In this document: positions 1 to 23,977 of the stretch, piece by piece | Position numbering within the stretch: position 1 is the first letter of the stretch | How the letters are laid out: each line of letters starts with the position of its first letter | DNA from: Alphaproteobacteria bacterium | Lineage (GTDB): Bacteria; Pseudomonadota; Alphaproteobacteria; Sphingomonadales; JAKSBY01 | NCBI GenBank assembly: GCA_021774625.1 | Contig: JAJFIV010000014.1 | Location: 1-33,696, forward strand | Direction of reading: 5' to 3' | Length of the DNA: 33,696 nt | Notes under the pieces: model-generated | The model's database searches: none | Told to the model about the DNA's origin: nothing | Seen by the model: only the letters and a program-made list of their open reading frames with translations | Translations under genes and position numbers: made by a program

Positions 1-336
1 GATACCGGATGGACCACTGGCGGAGATACTGGTGGAACCACTGGCGACGATACTGGAGGGACCACAGGCGAAGATACTGGTGGAACCACTGGCGAAGATA
101 CCGGAGGGACCACTGGCGACGACACTGGCGGAACCACCGGAGATGACACTGGCGGAACCACTGGGGACGATACCGGAGGGACCACAGGCGACGATACTGG
201 CGGGACCACCGGTGATGATACGGGTGGAACCACAGGCGATGATACGGGTGGAACCACTGGCGACGATACCGGAGGGACCACAGGCGATGATACGGGTGGA
301 ACCACAGGCGATGATACTGGCGGAACCACAGGCGGC
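1..336 (+). repeat. Tandem 24-bp repeat, 14 units, coding
   Basis: Fourteen direct units of 24 nt run without interruption, each encoding the octapeptide [D][T]GGTTG[DE]. The first unit is slightly diverged (Trp replaces Gly) and the last ends in Gly-Gly. Differences between units are mostly synonymous third-position changes (ACC/ACT/ACA, GGC/GGT/GGA), so the peptide is more conserved than the DNA. The array extends to the window edge and is probably longer. The period is a multiple of three, so unit gain or loss keeps the frame. Confidence 0.95.
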
Positions 337-762
337 GGTGAGACAACAGGCGGAGAAACGACGGGTGGCGAGCCTGACGACCTGTTTGCCGAGGCCGGGA
401 CTTACGACCCAATTTTTCTGGGGAACGACATTCTTCTCAATGGCTGTGGCTCGACCCTGAATGATGATCTTATCTGCCTGCTGGACGATCCGTCGCTGTT
501 CACCTTTACCTGGACCCTGGATGACATGGTCCTCGGCACCGGCTTTGAATTGCTGTTGGCGACGGGCGAAGACACAAAATTCAATCAGCCGGGTAATTTC
601 CTGATAATGCTTGAACTCGCCCTGAATGGTCGGCCGGACCTGGTCAGCGTGGACACGGCCATCATTCACCTCCTTGATTCCGCTGTTATTCCCATCCCCG
701 CCACGATCCTGCTGTTTGCGGCGGGGCTGGGCCTTCTTGGCTGGCGCCGCCGCAAGAATTAG
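1..762 (+). CDS. Thr/Gly/Asp repeat surface protein with C-terminal IPIPA sorting signal (5' partial)
   Basis: The gene is open in frame 1 from the window edge to the TAG at 760-762, giving 253 visible residues; the start lies outside. Residues 1-112 are fourteen near-identical octapeptides of the type TGGTTGDD, followed by GETTGG variants. Residues about 118-228 form a non-repetitive acidic domain with two cysteines. The C-terminus is a tripartite sorting tag: IPIPA near residue 230, a hydrophobic helix (about 234-247) and the basic end WRRRKN. This matches the PEP-CTERM/VPLPA-CTERM class, which is processed by exosortases and linked to extracellular polysaccharide in other bacteria. Thr-rich repeats in such proteins are candidate O-glycosylation sites, which is an inference here. 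The next operon downstream encodes a polysaccharide synthase and export pair. No homologue of the middle domain is recognised. Confidence 0.75.
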   Translation, partial: DTGWTTGGDTGGTTGDDTGGTTGEDTGGTTGEDTGGTTGDDTGGTTGDDTGGTTGDDTGGTTGDDTGGTTGDDTGGTTGDDTGGTTGDDTGGTTGDDTGGTTGDDTGGTTGGGETTGGETTGGEPDDLFAEAGTYDPIFLGNDILLNGCGSTLNDDLICLLDDPSLFTFTWTLDDMVLGTGFELLLATGEDTKFNQPGNFLIMLELALNGRPDLVSVDTAIIHLLDSAVIPIPATILLFAAGLGLLGWRRRKN

Positions 763-888
763 CGCTTCCAAAACACTCCTTCTGCGTGTATAAATAAATA
801 TATAACAAATAAACTGGGGCATATATAGCCGTTTGGTTGAAGTGGGGGCAGTCCGGTTTTTCGCGCCGCTTCAGGGAATGGAGCGTTT
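763..888 (+). promoter_or_regulatory. AT-rich intergenic region, probable nfrBA-like promoter
   Basis: This 126-nt gap separates the repeat-protein gene from the glycosyltransferase gene. Its middle (about 787-835) is strongly AT-rich, with TATAAATAAATATATAAC, unlike the flanking coding DNA. No clear terminator hairpin is visible after the upstream stop. A GGAG Shine-Dalgarno at 880-883 lies 5 nt before the ATG at 889. A promoter is likely, but the -35/-10 elements cannot be fixed by eye. Confidence 0.3.
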
Positions 889-2562
889 ATGGGAGGCGTA
901 TTTGGCGGGGCAGATCTCATCGATTCCGCCGCAATTTATCTTTACTGGCTAAAAATCTTTTTGATTTTTGTTGCCGCAGGCATCAGCCTGAACGGGCTGG
1001 ATGACGCTTTTATCGACGTTGTTTTTGTCCTGCGCACACTCTATCGCAGGCTTTTCATCTATACCCGCCATCCGCGCATGACCGCATCACAGCTGGCAAG
1101 CGGCCCGGAAGCTCCCATTGCAATCCTGGTTCCGGCCTGGCAGGAGTCCGCAGTCATCGGAAAAATGCTCAACCATCTCAGAAAAACATACCGCTATCAT
1201 GATTACCGGATTTTTGTCGGCGTCTATCTGAATGATCCGGAAACAAGGCTTGCCGTCGAAAAAGCGCTGCAGAGTGACACCGGCGAAAGAGATCATTGCC
1301 CTGCCCGGCACGCCGGGGTCACGATAGTAAAAGTGCCGGCGTTTGGCCCCACCAACAAAGCCGATTGCCTCAATCACATCTATCGCGGCATTCGCGAATT
1401 CGAACGCAAAACCGGCCAGCGTTTTGAGATTTTTGTCCTGCACGATGCCGAGGACGTTGTTCACCCGCTGGAACTGAGGCTTTATAACGCCCTGATCCCG
1501 GCAAAAGACATGGTGCAAATCCCGGTGATACCGCTGGAGCGGCGGCTCGGCGATCTGGTCGGCGGGCACTATCTGGACGAATTCGCCGAAAGCCACACCA
1601 AGGACCTGACGGTGCGGGAGGCGCTGACCGGAATCATTCCGTGCGCCGGTGTCGGCTGCGGCTTTTCCCGCCGCGCGATCCTGTCTGCGGCCAGGGGGGG
1701 CAATCCCTTTCATACCGGCAGCCTGACCGAAGATTATGACTTTGCCCTCAAACTGGGAACCGGCGGCGGCAGCTTTGCCTTCGTGCGTATGCCGTTATTA
1801 AGCGCCGGGAGTGGAATGCGCCTCTCCGCCGGCTGCCATCTGATCGCCACCCGCGAATTTTTTCCCGACAGTTTCCGCGCCGCCGTCCGTCAAAAGGCGC
1901 GCTGGCTGATCGGTATTGCCCTGCAGGGCTGGAAAAGCCAGGGCTGGCAGGGCGGTTGGATGCAAAAATATATGCTGTTTCGGGATCGGAAAGCCCTTAT
2001 TTCCGCCCAGTTCAACATGGCGGCTTATTTTATTGCCGCCAATATAATATTTCTTTGGCTCTTCTACCGGCTCTTTCCGGAAGGTCCGCGCTTTCCGCCC
2101 GTTGTGGAGCAGGGTGATCCGGCCTGGTATCTCCTGCTGCTCAATGCCGTATTTTTAACCAGCCGTCTATTTCAGCGGGTTCTGTTTGTCGGTCTTATTT
2201 ACGGCTGGCGACAAGGCCTGATGACCCTTCCCCGCCTTGTGGCCGCGAATATGATCAATTTTGCCGCTTCCGTCCGCGCGTTGCGTCTTTATACCGTATC
2301 CAAACTGACCGGGCGGCCCCTCGCCTGGGATAAAACCGCCCATGCCTTCCCGACGGACCGGCAATTACGGCCGTTCAAAACCCGGCTTGGGGAAATACTG
2401 ATCAAGGACGGCGCCCTGAGCCGGTCTCATCTTTCCAAGGCTTTGAAAGAACAGGGAAAGCGACACAGCAAACTTGGCGAAATACTGGTCGGCCATGGCT
2501 GGATCGGTCCGGCGACCGTGAAATCTGCGCTGGCGAAACAGCGGCGGGGGTTGGCGGCATGA
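889..2562 (+). CDS. nfrB: NfrB-like membrane glycosyltransferase with C-terminal MshEN c-di-GMP-binding domain
   Basis: This 557-residue protein resembles phage N4 adsorption protein B. It has an N-terminal membrane segment (about 17-32), a GT2 catalytic domain (about 75-345) and further membrane segments (about 370-392, 412-440). Visible GT2 hallmarks are DAED at 186-189, TED at 280-282 and QKARW at 335-339. Residues 499-551 form an MshEN (GSPII_E_N) domain: RLGEILIKDG starts the first c-di-GMP motif, with the conserved L and Q at fixed spacing, and KLGEILVGHG starts the second. In E. coli, NfrB is an inner-membrane synthase of a secreted polysaccharide and is activated by c-di-GMP through this domain. 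The gene overlaps the downstream nfrA-like gene by 4 nt (ATGA), so the two are probably co-translated. The sugar substrate is unknown. Confidence 0.85.
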   Translation: MGGVFGGADLIDSAAIYLYWLKIFLIFVAAGISLNGLDDAFIDVVFVLRTLYRRLFIYTRHPRMTASQLASGPEAPIAILVPAWQESAVIGKMLNHLRKTYRYHDYRIFVGVYLNDPETRLAVEKALQSDTGERDHCPARHAGVTIVKVPAFGPTNKADCLNHIYRGIREFERKTGQRFEIFVLHDAEDVVHPLELRLYNALIPAKDMVQIPVIPLERRLGDLVGGHYLDEFAESHTKDLTVREALTGIIPCAGVGCGFSRRAILSAARGGNPFHTGSLTEDYDFALKLGTGGGSFAFVRMPLLSAGSGMRLSAGCHLIATREFFPDSFRAAVRQKARWLIGIALQGWKSQGWQGGWMQKYMLFRDRKALISAQFNMAAYFIAANIIFLWLFYRLFPEGPRFPPVVEQGDPAWYLLLLNAVFLTSRLFQRVLFVGLIYGWRQGLMTLPRLVAANMINFAASVRALRLYTVSKLTGRPLAWDKTAHAFPTDRQLRPFKTRLGEILIKDGALSRSHLSKALKEQGKRHSKLGEILVGHGWIGPATVKSALAKQRRGLAA

Positions 2563-4466
2563 CGTCAAAATTTTTTATATTTTTGGCAGGAACCGTCATT
2601 TTTGCGCCGCTGACCCTAACGCTCCGGACACTCCCTCCGGCTGAGACGTCAAAAATCACTAGAGAAAGTATAGAAGAAGTTGATGATCTGACCCGCTTCC
2701 GGCTCTACCCGCATCTCGACCGCACATACCGCGCCCTGGAGGGGAAAGATTATAATGAGGCTTCGCTGGCCATCAGCCGCGCCGAAAAAATCGCTCCGGG
2801 TTATGTTGTCTTGGCATGGCTCAAAGCGGACATAGCGGCGGAAATAAATAAAGATACGGTCATTCACGCGCCCCGTGCAGCATATATCAGGATAGCGGAA
2901 CCACAGACCGTGGAACACATGGGGTTTGCACGGGCGCCGGATTCTGTTCCAATGCAACATCCAACCTTGTCGATGCGCGGCTACACAGCGCTGGCAAATG
3001 GCGATGATCCCAAAGCCGCAGCCTTGTTGGCGGCGGCGTTTTTCGAAGAAACGGCATTGTCCGACATGCAGCGACGGCAGATCGCCCGCGATCTAGGCTA
3101 TCTGCATTTTAAGCTGGGCGAACAGAAAATGGCCGCCCGCTGGTGGCAAATGGCGCTGGACCGTCAGTATGATGCCGAGACCGCCTTATTGGCGGCCACA
3201 GCGCTGATCGCCGCCAAAGAGGAGCGGGCGGCAAAATATCAGCTGGATGCAATTGACGTCTCGCGGCTTTCCCGGCAGGCCCGCATCCGCTACCATGAAA
3301 TAGCCGCCAGACTTTCGCCGGATGCGAAAATGAAGCATCTGGCTGAAATCGCCGAGATTGAACCCACCGCTGACCGCTATTACAATCTTGGATTTCTGCA
3401 AACGGGGGCCGGTGATTTGGCCGCTGCCCGGCTGTCCTTTGCCAGGGCGCGTTTTCTGGACCCGGCAAATGCGGAAATACTCGGCGCCTTGGCCTATACG
3501 GAATTATCGCTTGGCAATCTTGAGAGCACGATTCTTCTGTTCGAAGAACTGGCGCGGGAAAAACCCGGCGATGCGACCCTGCATGCCCAACTGGGTTATC
3601 TCTATAAACAGACCGGGGACCAGCGCTTTGCCCGTTATCATTTTGAACAGGCGATCGATTATGCGGCGACGGCCGCCACCAAAGAGGAATTTCTGGCCAC
3701 CGCTGATCCGCTCCGCCGGGAAATTGCCGCCCTTGAGCGGGGATATTCAGTCAGTTCTTATCTGTTTTTTCGCGACAACGGTTTTGTGCAGAGTAATCTG
3801 ACAGCTGCCGCACAAGCCATCGGCGGATCCCAGGGGTCATTTCAGGCTGCCGTCCGGCCCGGCCATTATATCAGGGCACTGGATCACATTCCTGCGGAAA
3901 TTTATGGCCGTCTGATATGGGCGTTTGAGGATGACAGCTATCGGCTGCGCCGCGACAGCCTGCAAGCGGGGCTGGGCGTCAGGCTGAAGCCTATTCAATC
4001 GCTGAATCTGGTGCTGGCGGCGGAACGTCTTGTCTCGCTCGGCACCAATGCACGGGACGACTGGCTTTTGCGCGCCAGCTATTCTTACGGGGCCGGCGGA
4101 GGGCTCCCGGCAGATAAGAAAAGATGGTTTTATTATAATCTTTATCTCGATGGCGCTTTGATCGATCCCGATGATCCGGATTTGTTCGGCGCTTTCGAGG
4201 GGCAGGCCGGCTGGGCCTTCCGTCTTGGTGATAAATGGACTGCGGTCCCTCACCTGCTGGCCAGCGGCCTGATCCAGAAGGATGACGTTGCAACCCTCAG
4301 CCTGCTGGAAGCCGGACCCGGTGTCAGCCTGCGTTACTATTTCGGCGGCGGCGACTACGGTGCGTCGGCCGCAGCGGCGGAATTCCGGCTGCAATATCGC
4401 GGAAAACTGGCCGGATCATCGGACAGCAAATCGGGTCTGGCATTAACCGCCGCCATCAGCTACTGA
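2559..4466 (+). CDS. nfrA: NfrA-like outer-membrane TPR protein (polysaccharide export/N4 receptor family)
   Basis: This 635-residue protein begins with a secretion signal (about 1-30), continues with Ala-rich TPR-like helical repeats (about 45-385), and ends in a beta-rich domain (about 400-635) with alternating aromatic strands and a terminal ITAISY-like strand. The C-terminal part resembles the domain conserved in phage N4 adsorption protein A (motifs such as GHYIRALDHIP, and RLVSLGTNARDDWLLR in the barrel-like region). E. coli NfrA is much longer (about 990 residues), so this is a compact version. The family is the outer-membrane partner of NfrB and probably acts in glycan export, analogous to PgaA. 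The order here is B then A. Its 3' end overlaps the convergent downstream gene by 7 nt. Confidence 0.8.
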   Translation: MTSKFFIFLAGTVIFAPLTLTLRTLPPAETSKITRESIEEVDDLTRFRLYPHLDRTYRALEGKDYNEASLAISRAEKIAPGYVVLAWLKADIAAEINKDTVIHAPRAAYIRIAEPQTVEHMGFARAPDSVPMQHPTLSMRGYTALANGDDPKAAALLAAAFFEETALSDMQRRQIARDLGYLHFKLGEQKMAARWWQMALDRQYDAETALLAATALIAAKEERAAKYQLDAIDVSRLSRQARIRYHEIAARLSPDAKMKHLAEIAEIEPTADRYYNLGFLQTGAGDLAAARLSFARARFLDPANAEILGALAYTELSLGNLESTILLFEELAREKPGDATLHAQLGYLYKQTGDQRFARYHFEQAIDYAATAATKEEFLATADPLRREIAALERGYSVSSYLFFRDNGFVQSNLTAAAQAIGGSQGSFQAAVRPGHYIRALDHIPAEIYGRLIWAFEDDSYRLRRDSLQAGLGVRLKPIQSLNLVLAAERLVSLGTNARDDWLLRASYSYGAGGGLPADKKRWFYYNLYLDGALIDPDDPDLFGAFEGQAGWAFRLGDKWTAVPHLLASGLIQKDDVATLSLLEAGPGVSLRYYFGGGDYGASAAAAEFRLQYRGKLAGSSDSKSGLALTAAISY

Positions 4467-4900
4467 CTGACCCCCAAAAGGAGGGTAGCGCCAAGCGCGA
4501 CGAGCGCCAGTAACTTCAGGACTTCCGCCGAAACAAATAACATATGCGCCTGGGATTTCGGCGGCTCGTGCCCTTCGATAACGGCTGCGGCACGACGCAC
4601 CAGATAGGGCGTAAGCCAGGCTCCCTGTACGATAATGACCAGCAGAATCAATCCAATCAGAAGGGTGAGCGTTCCTTCCGGCTTTGCCAGCCAGGCGACA
4701 ATCAGCATCAGAACCGCCAATACCATTTCGACACGGCTGAACAACCGGAATGTTACGCGCCCGACATCAAACGCCGCCTTACGTTCCAGTGACTTTGCCC
4801 GGAATTTAACGGGCGTTGCGATAAAGGACAGCCCGATAATCATCCCGGCCCATAACAGCGCCAGAATGGCGAGCGCAATATAACCCTGTTCGATGCTCAT
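4460..4900 (-). CDS. Small four-helix membrane protein, function unknown
   Basis: This 146-residue protein has four predicted membrane segments (about 6-28, 57-72, 77-95, 122-143). A conserved-looking motif, ATPVKF, follows the first helix, and DVGRVTFRLFSRVE leads into the second. I do not recognise a named family with confidence; it resembles small DUF-type inner-membrane proteins of Proteobacteria. The ATG at 4900 is preceded by AGGT at a suitable distance. It converges on the nfrA-like gene with a 7-nt overlap and diverges from the M13 peptidase gene. Nothing links it to either neighbour. Confidence 0.7.
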   Translation of the reverse strand: MSIEQGYIALAILALLWAGMIIGLSFIATPVKFRAKSLERKAAFDVGRVTFRLFSRVEMVLAVLMLIVAWLAKPEGTLTLLIGLILLVIIVQGAWLTPYLVRRAAAVIEGHEPPKSQAHMLFVSAEVLKLLALVALGATLLLGVSQ

Positions 4901-7192: not shown

Positions 7193-9832
7193 TTATTCCA
7201 GGCTTTTGGCGGCGATTTCATAAACATCCTTGGAAAGGCCGTCCTGTTTGACGATGCGCTCCAGTTCAGCCTGTATCAAACCCTGCCGGGCGGAGTCATA
7301 TTTTCTCAGCCGGCTGAAAGGCACAATCAGCCGGGATGCCATCTGCGGATTGCGGCTGTCGAGTTTCAGAATCATGTCAGCCAGAAAACGATAGCCCACC
7401 CCTGATTTATCGTGAAAACGGACCTGATTGCCCGCGGTAAATGCTCCGATGAGCGCCCGTGCCCGGTTGGGGTTTTTGAGGGTAAAGGCCGGATGCGCGG
7501 CAAGCTTTTGCACGTCCGCCAGTGTGGTCTCGCGCTTTGACAGCGCCTGGAGAGTAAACCATTTATCAATCACCAGCGCTTCATTTTTCCACTGTTCATA
7601 AAAGGCGGCAAGGGCCTGCTGGCGCGCGGGGGCATCGGCACCCGAAAGCGCGATCAGCGCAGCGATGCGGTCGGTCATATTATCCGCCATCTCGAACTGC
7701 CTGAACGCCAGATCAATGGCCGCCCGGCTATCGTTCTGCATCAGATAACCAAGAGCGGTGTTTTTCAGTTTACGCCGGGCCTTTTCCCCCCGATCCAGGC
7801 TGTAAGCGCCACCCTGATTATTCTCGTATGCCGCCTGCCAGCGGTCAGCAAGCGATCGCAGCAATTCATCCCGCACAAATTCACGGGCCTGATGAATAGC
7901 GTCCGGGTCAATCACATCCATCAACTGGCCAAGATAAATTTCCGACGGCAGGTCCACCGCTTCAGCGGCCAGCGCCGGATCAAGGGTCCGGTCATCAAGA
8001 ACGGCCGCAATGGCCTCTATAAAATCACCGGACAAGATTGGTTTCCGATTGTTTTGAATATCCCGGATCAAGTCCAGGATAATGCCGGTTGCCAGTTGCT
8101 GCCCCGCTTCCCAGCGGGCGAAGGGATCATTGTCATTGGCCAGCAAAAACATGAGGTCGGCGCGGGTCAGACTGCTGGCCATCATCACCGGGGCGGAAAA
8201 ACCGCGCAGCAGTGACGGAACGGGTCTGGATGGTACATTACGAAAGAGAAAATGCTGTTTATTGTCCCGGATATTCAGCAGATAACCGCTGCCATTCGCA
8301 GTTCCGTCTCCGTCCAGTTCCACCCGCATTTCCGCGCCATTGTCATTCAAAAGACCAACCTGCAGCGGAATATGCATGGGTTTTTTGCTGGTCTGCCCAG
8401 CGGTGTCCGGCACATTTTGCGTGACCGTCAGGCGGTATTCGCGCTGATCTGCATCATAGGCATCCTTCACGTGCAGCAGCGGGGTGCCCGCCTGTTCATA
8501 CCATAACTTGAACTGACCAAGATCAATATTTGAGGCATCCTGCATGGCCGCAGCGAAATCATCGCAGGTCACCGCCTGACCGTCATGGCGCTCGAAATAG
8601 AGGTCCATGCCCTTGCGGAAATGATCCGGTCCCAGCAGCGTGTGCATCATGCGGATGACTTCCGCGCCCTTGTTGTAAACCGTCACCGTATAGAAATTAT
8701 TGATTTCCATATAAGCGTGCGGGCGCACCGGATGCGCCATGGGTCCGGCATCCTCGGAAAACTGATGGGCCCGCAAAATGCGCACGTCTTCAATTCTTTT
8801 CACCGCGCGCGACCCCATATCGCTCGAAAATTCCTGATCGCGGAACACCGTCAGGCCCTCTTTCAGGGAAAGCTGAAACCAGTCGCGGCAGGTCACCCGG
8901 TTGCCGGTCCAGTTATGGAAATATTCGTGGCCGATGACTGTTTCGATCCCTTCAAAATCCTGATCGGTCGCAGTTTCCGGCCGGGCCAGCACATATTTGG
9001 TGTTGAAAATATTGAGGCTTTTATTCTCCATCGCGCCCATATTGAAATCGGAAACAGCGACGATGTTGTAAATGTCGAGATCATATTCGAGGCCGAATGT
9101 ATCCTCGTCCCACTTCATGGACTTTTTCAGGGCGGCCATCGCATAATCGCATTTGCCGATATCCCCTTCCGCCGCATAAAGACAGAGCCTTACCCGGCGG
9201 CCCGATCCGGTGATAAAATAATCTTCCAACAGCGCGAGATCGCCGGCAACGAGGGCAAACAGGTAGCTCGGCTTCGGGAACGGATCGTCCCAGCGCACCC
9301 AGTGACGCCCGCCCGCAAGTTCTCCTTTTTCCACCAGGTTCCCGTTGGACAGCAGAACCGGATATTTGACCCGATCCGCTTCAATCCTGACGGAATAGCG
9401 CGCCATCACATCCGGCCGGTCGAGATAATAGGTGATGCGGCGAAAGCCTTCCGCCTCGCACTGCGTGCAGAAATTGCCGCCGGACTGATAAAGTCCCATC
9501 AGCCTGGTGTTTTCCTGCGGTTTGAGATCGGTCACGATTTCCAGCGTGAACCGGCCGGGAACGTCCTTGATCGTCAGTGTGTCCGGCGTCAGATCATAAA
9601 CTGACGGTTCCAGCACGCCCCCATCAAGGGAAACCGAAACCGGCTTGAGATCCGGCGATCCATCAAGCCGCAGGGGCGCATCACCCTCTCCGCTCCGCAC
9701 GATTGCCATACGATTGACCACCCGGCAGACAGGTTCACTAAGGTCAAAATCCAGCGACACGCTTTCAATGGTAAATTCCGGCGGCTGATAATCCTTCAGA
9801 TAAATCGTCCGCGGCGTTTCTATTTTGCTCAC
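7193..9832 (-). CDS. pepN: Aminopeptidase N (M1 family)
   Basis: This 879-residue alanyl aminopeptidase removes N-terminal residues from peptides in the cytoplasm. The exopeptidase motif GAMEN lies at 266-270 and the zinc site HEYFH at 302-306, with Glu325 as third ligand in the KEGLTVF context. Length and the C-terminal alpha-helical half (about 550-879) fit the E. coli PepN type. The start is GTG at 9832, 12 nt after the stop of the Lrp-type regulator gene, so the two probably form an operon read leftwards. It faces pepO across the palindromic element. There is no export signal. Confidence 0.96.
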   Translation of the reverse strand: MSKIETPRTIYLKDYQPPEFTIESVSLDFDLSEPVCRVVNRMAIVRSGEGDAPLRLDGSPDLKPVSVSLDGGVLEPSVYDLTPDTLTIKDVPGRFTLEIVTDLKPQENTRLMGLYQSGGNFCTQCEAEGFRRITYYLDRPDVMARYSVRIEADRVKYPVLLSNGNLVEKGELAGGRHWVRWDDPFPKPSYLFALVAGDLALLEDYFITGSGRRVRLCLYAAEGDIGKCDYAMAALKKSMKWDEDTFGLEYDLDIYNIVAVSDFNMGAMENKSLNIFNTKYVLARPETATDQDFEGIETVIGHEYFHNWTGNRVTCRDWFQLSLKEGLTVFRDQEFSSDMGSRAVKRIEDVRILRAHQFSEDAGPMAHPVRPHAYMEINNFYTVTVYNKGAEVIRMMHTLLGPDHFRKGMDLYFERHDGQAVTCDDFAAAMQDASNIDLGQFKLWYEQAGTPLLHVKDAYDADQREYRLTVTQNVPDTAGQTSKKPMHIPLQVGLLNDNGAEMRVELDGDGTANGSGYLLNIRDNKQHFLFRNVPSRPVPSLLRGFSAPVMMASSLTRADLMFLLANDNDPFARWEAGQQLATGIILDLIRDIQNNRKPILSGDFIEAIAAVLDDRTLDPALAAEAVDLPSEIYLGQLMDVIDPDAIHQAREFVRDELLRSLADRWQAAYENNQGGAYSLDRGEKARRKLKNTALGYLMQNDSRAAIDLAFRQFEMADNMTDRIAALIALSGADAPARQQALAAFYEQWKNEALVIDKWFTLQALSKRETTLADVQKLAAHPAFTLKNPNRARALIGAFTAGNQVRFHDKSGVGYRFLADMILKLDSRNPQMASRLIVPFSRLRKYDSARQGLIQAELERIVKQDGLSKDVYEIAAKSLE

Positions 9833-22699: not shown

Positions 22700-23977
22700 T
22701 CAAACTGCCACGGTGCGGTTGCGGCCCTTGTTTTTAGCCTGGTACAGCGCCTTGTCCGCAGCGGCCACGACCGAATGCTGGGTTTGTTTTTTATCCTTGC
22801 GGGCCGCAACACCGGCGCTAAAGGTGATGGTGATGCCCAAAATACCCTTGGCCCGTTTGGTGCGGCGTTGTTCCGCCTGATTTTCGGAAAGTCGTTTCGG
22901 CCGGTCTTTGGCACGGATACCTAAACGGTGCGCCGCAAGACTTTCTCTTACGGCTTCGACAAAATGGGCGCTTTCCACGGCTTCACGCCCCGGAAAAAGA
23001 ATGGCGAATTCCTCGCCGCCATAGCGAAAATATTTGCCCCCGCCGGCGACGGTCTGCAAATGCCGCGCCACCATGCGCAGCGCCTGATCGCCGACATCGT
23101 GGCCATACTTATCATTCACCCGCTTGAAATGATCCACATCGACCATGGCAACGGCGAAAGCCCTCTTTTGTTTGCGCAGTTCAACGTTAAAAGCGCGGCG
23201 CGATGGAATGCCGGTCAGATCATCGGTAAAGGCAAGCCGGTAAATTTCACCCACCAGAGAGACAAAAACAATTATTGCGGCCGCCGTGTATAACAGGCCG
23301 GTTCCAACAATACCGGTCTCAAAGGCCGACGCCACGGCAACAGAAAGCAGGATTCCGATGCTGCCGGCCGCTACATTTGCCGAGCGGAAAAATTGCCGGC
23401 CCAGGATTAAAAGAAAAGCGATGGCAAAAGTAATGGCTGCCAATTGCGGCGCCTGCTGGGGAATGCCCGTGACAGAACCAAATGGCTGCCAAAACAGTAA
23501 GCCCGCGACCATCTCTCTGATCCCGTTTTGAAACGCAGAGGGAAAGGAACCGTTCAGCCCATCCCATAGATACCAGATAAAAGCAGCTTGTGCGGCAATC
23601 AACAGGGCTTTTAGACCGCCGCGGCCTTCACCCGGTTTGTCCCCGCCCCAAAGATTGATCAAAATCAGATTCAGCGGAAACAGAATCAGCCATGCGGCAA
23701 AAAGAAAACGGTCTGGCGCACTCTCGTCGCCTGCCGGAAAAATATTATGAGTGAGATAACCGCCGAGAGCCACCATTAAGGCGACCAGCGCGAAGGCGCT
23801 GAGCTTGAACCGGTACGCGCCAAAGACCGTGAAAATCGCCAGCACATAGACGCTGCGTTCCAGCATCTTGAGATCGAGGCCTGCCAGCCGGTTTTCGCCG
23901 GCCACATAGAGCGCCGCGAAAAAAATGGCGATGGGCCAGAAAAAAGTGGTCAATATTCGAAACGGTCCAGAAATCAC
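22700..23977 (-). CDS. Membrane-bound diguanylate cyclase (GGDEF) without inhibitory site
   Basis: This 425-residue protein has an N-terminal membrane domain of several helices (about 8-28, 42-80, 92-110, 122-138, 178-245) and a C-terminal GGDEF domain (about 248-425). Catalytic features are MVDVDHFK (Asp280) and GGEEF at 320-324, so it should make c-di-GMP from two GTP. The RxxD inhibitory motif expected before GGEEF is replaced by AGGG, so product inhibition at that site is unlikely. The region after GGEEF has an extra basic insertion (about 350-372). The GTG start at 23977 has no good Shine-Dalgarno but overlaps a short upstream frame. No known sensory fold is recognised in the membrane part. 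Confidence 0.9.
   Translation of the reverse strand: MISGPFRILTTFFWPIAIFFAALYVAGENRLAGLDLKMLERSVYVLAIFTVFGAYRFKLSAFALVALMVALGGYLTHNIFPAGDESAPDRFLFAAWLILFPLNLILINLWGGDKPGEGRGGLKALLIAAQAAFIWYLWDGLNGSFPSAFQNGIREMVAGLLFWQPFGSVTGIPQQAPQLAAITFAIAFLLILGRQFFRSANVAAGSIGILLSVAVASAFETGIVGTGLLYTAAAIIVFVSLVGEIYRLAFTDDLTGIPSRRAFNVELRKQKRAFAVAMVDVDHFKRVNDKYGHDVGDQALRMVARHLQTVAGGGKYFRYGGEEFAILFPGREAVESAHFVEAVRESLAAHRLGIRAKDRPKRLSENQAEQRRTKRAKGILGITITFSAGVAARKDKKQTQHSVVAAADKALYQAKNKGRNRTVAV

Follow-up and report, generated by a model that had tools for sequence, protein, structure and literature searches.

A PEP-CTERM repeat protein with a sugar-binding-like predicted fold encoded next to an nfrBA-type exopolysaccharide operon in a Sphingomonadales bacterium

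The nfrBA-ybcH locus of Escherichia coli directs the NGR exopolysaccharide, which is the receptor of phage N4, and a wecB gene adjoining nfrB is a published hallmark of the pathway (PMC8669469, PMC8669472 for the locus; PMC8669469 for wecB). The published survey of NfrB neighbourhoods does not mention a PEP-CTERM protein. The PEP-CTERM/EpsH system described by Haft and co-workers in 2006 (PMC1569441) combines a class of C-terminal sorting tags with a single exosortase serving several clients, the regulator PrsR, a sigma-54 box and an association with exopolysaccharide (EPS). What PEP-CTERM proteins do at the surface has been an open question since then, and the one experimental precedent points to EPS retention: PepA of Aquincola tertiaricarbonis, encoded by an RpoN-dependent PEP-CTERM gene upstream of prsT, shifts EPS from the soluble to the bound state (PMC9850573). 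Our literature search found no paper naming PEP-CTERM together with NfrB, and a link between the two appears to be undescribed.

Here we analyse a stretch of 33,696 nt, hereafter the window, which carries a PEP-CTERM repeat gene ahead of nfrB and nfrA (Table 1). Its first base is base 1 of contig C6, in a genome of 2.99 Mb and 35 contigs. The repeat protein adds a recurrent neighbour to NfrBA. Its family brings a conserved and foldable lectin-like domain to a locus whose glycan synthase is defined, so that the question of PEP-CTERM function can be tested on one domain and one glycan.

The NfrBA operon compared with that of E. coli

As in E. coli, a GT2 synthase with an MshEN domain is followed by an overlapping TPR/outer-membrane exporter, NfrA. 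The two NfrB proteins are 41% identical and invariant at the HDAED, TED and QxxRW motifs, but that of the window lacks about 190 C-terminal residues; its NfrA matches the E. coli protein over the C-terminal 380 residues, and no ybcH follows nfrA. The repeat protein does not take the place of YbcH as a homologue, since hhalign gave a probability of 0.1 and the N-terminal protein has no Pfam match (YbcH is DUF4434). NCBIfam NF012033 (glycosyl transferase family protein) matches NfrB with 571.5 bits (cut-off 537). The NfrB equivalog NF008411, a full-length model of 723 positions, scores 524 bits over residues 15-552 and does not reach its cut-off of 1170, and by these matches we class the product as NfrB-type, not as an equivalog of the E. 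coli enzyme. NfrA carries TPRs and NfrA_C (PF13283, 105.9 bits, cut-off 25). WecB homologues are present in the genome and, like the wecB gene next to nfrB in a relative (G016), hint indirectly that the product may be a ManNAc-type glycan. To judge by sequence nfrBA is an ordinary NGR-type EPS synthase/exporter operon.

A sequence-only reading of this DNA had proposed that NfrB ends in an MshEN domain with both c-di-GMP motifs, and NF053729 (MshE-type c-di-GMP motif) bears this out with 53.4 bits against a cut-off of 38 over the 53 residues 499-551. The two motifs are of 24 residues each: motif I, RLGEILIKDGALSRSHLSKALKEQ, is followed after a 5-residue spacer by motif II, KLGEILVGHGWIGPATVKSALAKQ, in which K stands for R and V for L, both conservative replacements. 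Motif I fits the published MshEN consensus better than does that of E. coli NfrB (PMC5013675), and residues L490, G491 and L537, whose mutation lowered the function of the E. coli protein (PMC8669469), are aligned with L500, G501 and L548. Through this motif pair the operon is probably switched on by c-di-GMP. The motifs are lost in the closest relative, G001. A GGDEF diguanylate cyclase gene about 18 kb from nfrB (22700-23977, minus strand) could supply c-di-GMP.

The 4-nt overlap noted in the same reading belongs to nfrB and nfrA (ATGA, 2559-2562), while the repeat gene itself ends 126 nt ahead of nfrB. Between the repeat gene and nfrB we found neither a sigma-70-type promoter nor a terminator, and no terminator-like site within 600-1000, so that transcripts may possibly read through from the repeat gene into nfrBA. 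The window holds no Rfam family and no tRNA.

Table 1. Features of the repeat gene, of nfrBA and of the adjoining genes (window coordinates except in the first line).
Feature	Position	Strand	Basis or remark
N-terminal half of repeat gene	L057:9449-11401		3' end of C18
C-terminal part of PEP-CTERM repeat protein gene	1..762	+	5' end missing at contig start
14 octapeptide units, mostly DTGGTTG[D/E], 24-bp array	1..336	+	TRF array 1-334, period 24
PKD-like domain (predicted), conserved Cys pair	373..690	+	AlphaFold2 mean pLDDT 91.5; VIA-align Z 10.3
PEP-CTERM sorting tag: IPIPA, hydrophobic helix, WRRRKN	697..756	+	TIGR02595
nfrB: GT2 synthase with HDAED, TED, QxxRW motifs	889..2562	+	Pfam GT2, E. 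coli alignment
MshEN c-di-GMP motif pair	2383..2541	+	NF053729; consensus from PMC5013675
nfrA: TPRs and C-terminal NfrA_C (outer-membrane exporter family)	2559..4466	+	Pfam
DUF4149 membrane protein, convergent with nfrA; bystander	4460..4900	-	Pfam
pepN (M1 aminopeptidase), bystander; synteny anchor 3' of locus in many relatives	7193..9832	-	

The repeat protein, its domains and its family

The open reading frame of the repeat gene is open-ended on its 5' side, as contig C6 begins inside the gene. Elsewhere in the genome this repeat DNA was seen once, at the 3' end of contig C18. A 651-residue open frame there comprises a membrane segment, a region of about 430 residues and then the repeat, with manC (mannose-1-phosphate guanylyltransferase gene) on its 5' side. 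No unique overlap between C18 and C6 was found and the bridge consists of the matching repeats and of homologues; because the latter (in G001, G040 and others) hold both halves within one frame, we read the two as a single gene split by assembly. The whole protein would then comprise an N-terminal membrane segment, a domain of about 300 residues, the octapeptide linker, a PKD-like domain and the tag. Its start in the C18 frame, MTRQIDKKWLYGLAGLAVAGIIILSG, was read by eye as a signal or membrane segment.

An octapeptide-repeat protein with an IPIPA-type tag ahead of nfrB-nfrA had been described from the sequence alone, and this description stands: the linker has 14 units and TIGR02595 (PEP_CTERM) matches the tag with 19.9 bits in the protein scan (cut-off 16) and 22.7 bits in the genome scan. 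Pfam PF07589 remains under its cut-off on the same tag (17.5 bits, 20.7), and the other PEP-CTERM proteins of the genome end in similar xPxPA tags. Matches of the repeat protein to Prion_octapep (PF03991) and LPXTG were rejected as weak or known cross-noise. Within the array codon positions 1 and 2 are uniform at 98-99% and position 3 at 62%; since variation falls mainly on third positions, the peptide is what is kept. Across the order the linkers consist of TGGD, TTDG, DPT, TD, PE, SSG, PGP or NGGG repeats and, because the architecture is kept while these sequences differ completely, the linker seems to serve as a flexible spacer rather than as a specific sequence. A frame shift in the TGGSGGD array of G008 (L059, about 7700-7780) puts the halves in different frames, by error, as a pseudogene or by repeat slippage.

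Proteins of the surface and proteins binding carbohydrate frequently contain malectin/CBM-like and PKD-like folds. No Pfam family matches the N-terminal domain; its model (AlphaFold2, 21 homologues, pLDDT 81) shows a helical part and a sandwich (residues 175-350), the latter about half of the domain and malectin/CBM35-like. With Z from 11.6 to 7 the sandwich matches the C-terminal domain of Bacteroides beta-glucuronidases, YxiM, plant malectin-like ectodomains, malectin and CBM35. The predicted fold thus resembles malectin and CBM35-type domains, but at the level of sequence no relation of the domain to a solved structure could be detected. The model of the C-terminal domain resembles the PKD domains of collagenases, and here too no convincing sequence relation to a solved structure was found. 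Judged by its model the N-terminal head probably binds sugar, a resemblance of fold alone being no proof of sugar binding.

Within the order the N-terminal domain is present in 49 of 398 genomes, spread over 19 of 84 genera, and within the class in 33 of 385; six of the seven genomes that contain it in a draw of 398 from the phylum belong to the order or class. This distribution places the repeat protein in a PEP-CTERM family that is conserved and as yet undescribed. Among class-wide relatives of the domain the tag is often missing altogether, which implies that the domain has wider uses. Such relatives (L156-L158, L160-L162, L168-L174), often shorter and secreted, with ..SPN or ..SPS at the C-terminus, form a separate undescribed group. 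Proteins of G052 and G003 (L147 1580-4717, L148 3523-5562) carry two copies of the domain in one frame, and G053 has two more paralogues of the repeat protein apart from nfrBA (L127, L128), one of them with no detectable low-complexity linker.

The exosortase and sigma-54 setting

An exosortase was sought on account of the sequence-only reading and is present: the genome encodes a single one, XrtA (PF09721, E 1.3e-73), lying in an EPS-type cluster that also encodes a PEP-CTERM-associated outer-membrane protein (TIGR03016). PrsR is present as well (704.6 bits, cut-off 502.6), and there are 14 PEP-CTERM matches, the repeat gene and 13 others. A sigma-54-type -24/-12 site, TGGCACGGCATTTGCT, lies 118 nt 5' of the repeat gene and matches the consensus at 11/11 positions. 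The best site near the start of the other PEP-CTERM ORFs scores 11/11 in 3 of 13 and 10/11 in 5 of 13. Of 3000 windows drawn at random from the genome, 23 reach at least 10/11, and about 20 of these we estimate from the sampling scheme to be the repeat gene's own site resampled. A PEP-CTERM regulon with this sigma-54 pattern was described by Haft and co-workers (PMC1569441). The members in family f8 (f1 to f8 are our working labels of GTDB-level families, not taxon names) mostly have no clear sigma-54 site and their tags deviate (SAPP/SEPP). Over 60 sampled genomes an exosortase occurs in 24 of 26 with the protein and 24 of 34 without it (P 0.05, relatives not being independent); it was not found in G022 (81% complete) and G040 (94% complete), both with the repeat-protein family.

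The locus thus has in common with the PEP-CTERM/EpsH system the class of tag, a single exosortase with several clients, PrsR, the sigma-54 box and the association with EPS, and differs in that this client has a conserved Pfam-less N-terminal domain family and a hypervariable linker (PMC1569441). With PepA it shares the tag, sigma-54 control and a proposed EPS-binding role, and in f5 and f4 orthologues also the linkage to prsT; the likeness drawn here is one of features, and the repeat gene here adjoins nfrBA in several families. We therefore lean, with modest confidence, towards a sigma-54-controlled, exosortase-sorted and probably sugar-binding EPS-retention protein that is housed with NfrBA and not obligately coupled to it. 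PrsR and sigma-54 would activate the gene at the same time as the remaining PEP-CTERM genes of the genome, its product would pass through the inner membrane, and XrtA would cut off the tag and deliver the protein to the surface. There the sugar-binding-like head on its long flexible linker may capture secreted EPS and keep it cell-bound, much as PepA does in Aquincola; candidates are the EPS of the XrtA cluster, the NfrBA glycan, or both.

Gene neighbourhoods and competing readings

Co-localisation of the repeat gene with nfrBA, sought in relatives, recurs: the gene lies upstream of nfrBA in several GTDB families. It adjoins nfrBA on the same strand of one contig in ten relatives (G001, G008, G014, G026, G040, G053, G062, G080, G095 and G110), and adjacency was inferred by matching contig ends in our genome, G003 (f3) and G016 (f4), whose contigs are broken inside the repeat. 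As repeats break contigs exactly at this gene, its absence from fragmented genomes is weak evidence. In f1 and f8 the locus runs from cob genes through (manC), the repeat protein and zero or one gene to nfrB, nfrA and pepN. The named records Emcibacteraceae OB4, Emcibacter NORP245 and Sphingomonadales HyVt-439 share this neighbourhood, and to judge by named records f8 is apparently the Emcibacter family. Genes inserted between the repeat gene and nfrB vary and include HTTM/DCC1-type, C5-epimerase-like and opposite-strand 2OG-Fe(II) oxygenase genes (L061 9516-11294, L062 6528-8429, L063 6514-7935).

The sequence-only reading took the protein for a dedicated scaffold or acceptor of the c-di-GMP-induced NfrBA glycan. 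The adjacencies and named records speak for it, as do the stretch free of terminator-like sites, the loss of both repeat gene and nfrBA in genus g19 of f8, and the presence in G016 and G010 of a methyltransferase-like gene and wecB (UDP-ManNAc supply) 3' of the repeat gene, wecB standing between it and nfrB in G016. Against it, the protein occurs in 11 of 13 sampled f5 genomes and nfrB in none (60-genome set), and in G056 nfrB lies within 165 nt 3' of a cob-type methylase gene where the repeat gene is missing. The repeat gene and nfrBA are apart in G004, G007 and G052, the closest relative has lost the MshEN motifs, and over the 60 genomes no association of protein and NfrB was seen (NfrB in 15 of 26 with the protein and 17 of 34 without it, P 0.6). 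Moreover cobT, cobD, a tetrapyrrole methylase gene and pepN lie nearby, so that the linkage may be inherited. Nor is the link a general feature of NfrBA: among the 80 named records with the best NfrB matches, which span many phyla, the N-terminal domain occurs in Emcibacteraceae OB4 only, and the C-terminal domain, that record apart, in no more than two Sphingomonadales/Emcibacter MAGs. We consider a dedicated partnership unlikely. A surface-scaffold role, the other part of that proposal, accords with the sugar-binding-like fold and the PepA precedent.

Coupling that is not obligate, as in the reading we prefer, follows from f5, which keeps the protein with no nfrB, and from G056, which has nfrBA with no protein. 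The f5 gene is found in the interval from cobT to pepN, with prsT and a sugar transferase of XrtA type next to it, and an exosortase gene lies 17-20 kb away. By these neighbourhoods the protein is primarily part of the exosortase/EPS system, NfrBA being its neighbour in some families.

That protein and NfrBA do not work together at all and merely share an old cob-manC-X-nfrBA-pepN block is also unlikely in our view: the block does hold cobalamin genes and pepN, which have no EPS link, and either partner can be absent alone (f5; G056; f7, where cobD adjoins nfrBA and the repeat gene is not between), but lineages with nfrBA keep it next to the protein, manC and sometimes wecB, and in f5 the repeat gene adjoins other EPS genes.

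A more ambitious variant, which we regard as quite doubtful, is an EPS module with two signals, in which c-di-GMP would activate synthesis of a ManNAc-type glycan by NfrBA and PrsR/sigma-54 would supply the lectin-like surface protein capturing that glycan. The repeat protein would then be a third NfrBA partner that substitutes for YbcH, and within the order it might also serve N4-like phages as a co-receptor. Two delta-type records (L189, L203) also have PEP-CTERM-like ORFs near nfrB.
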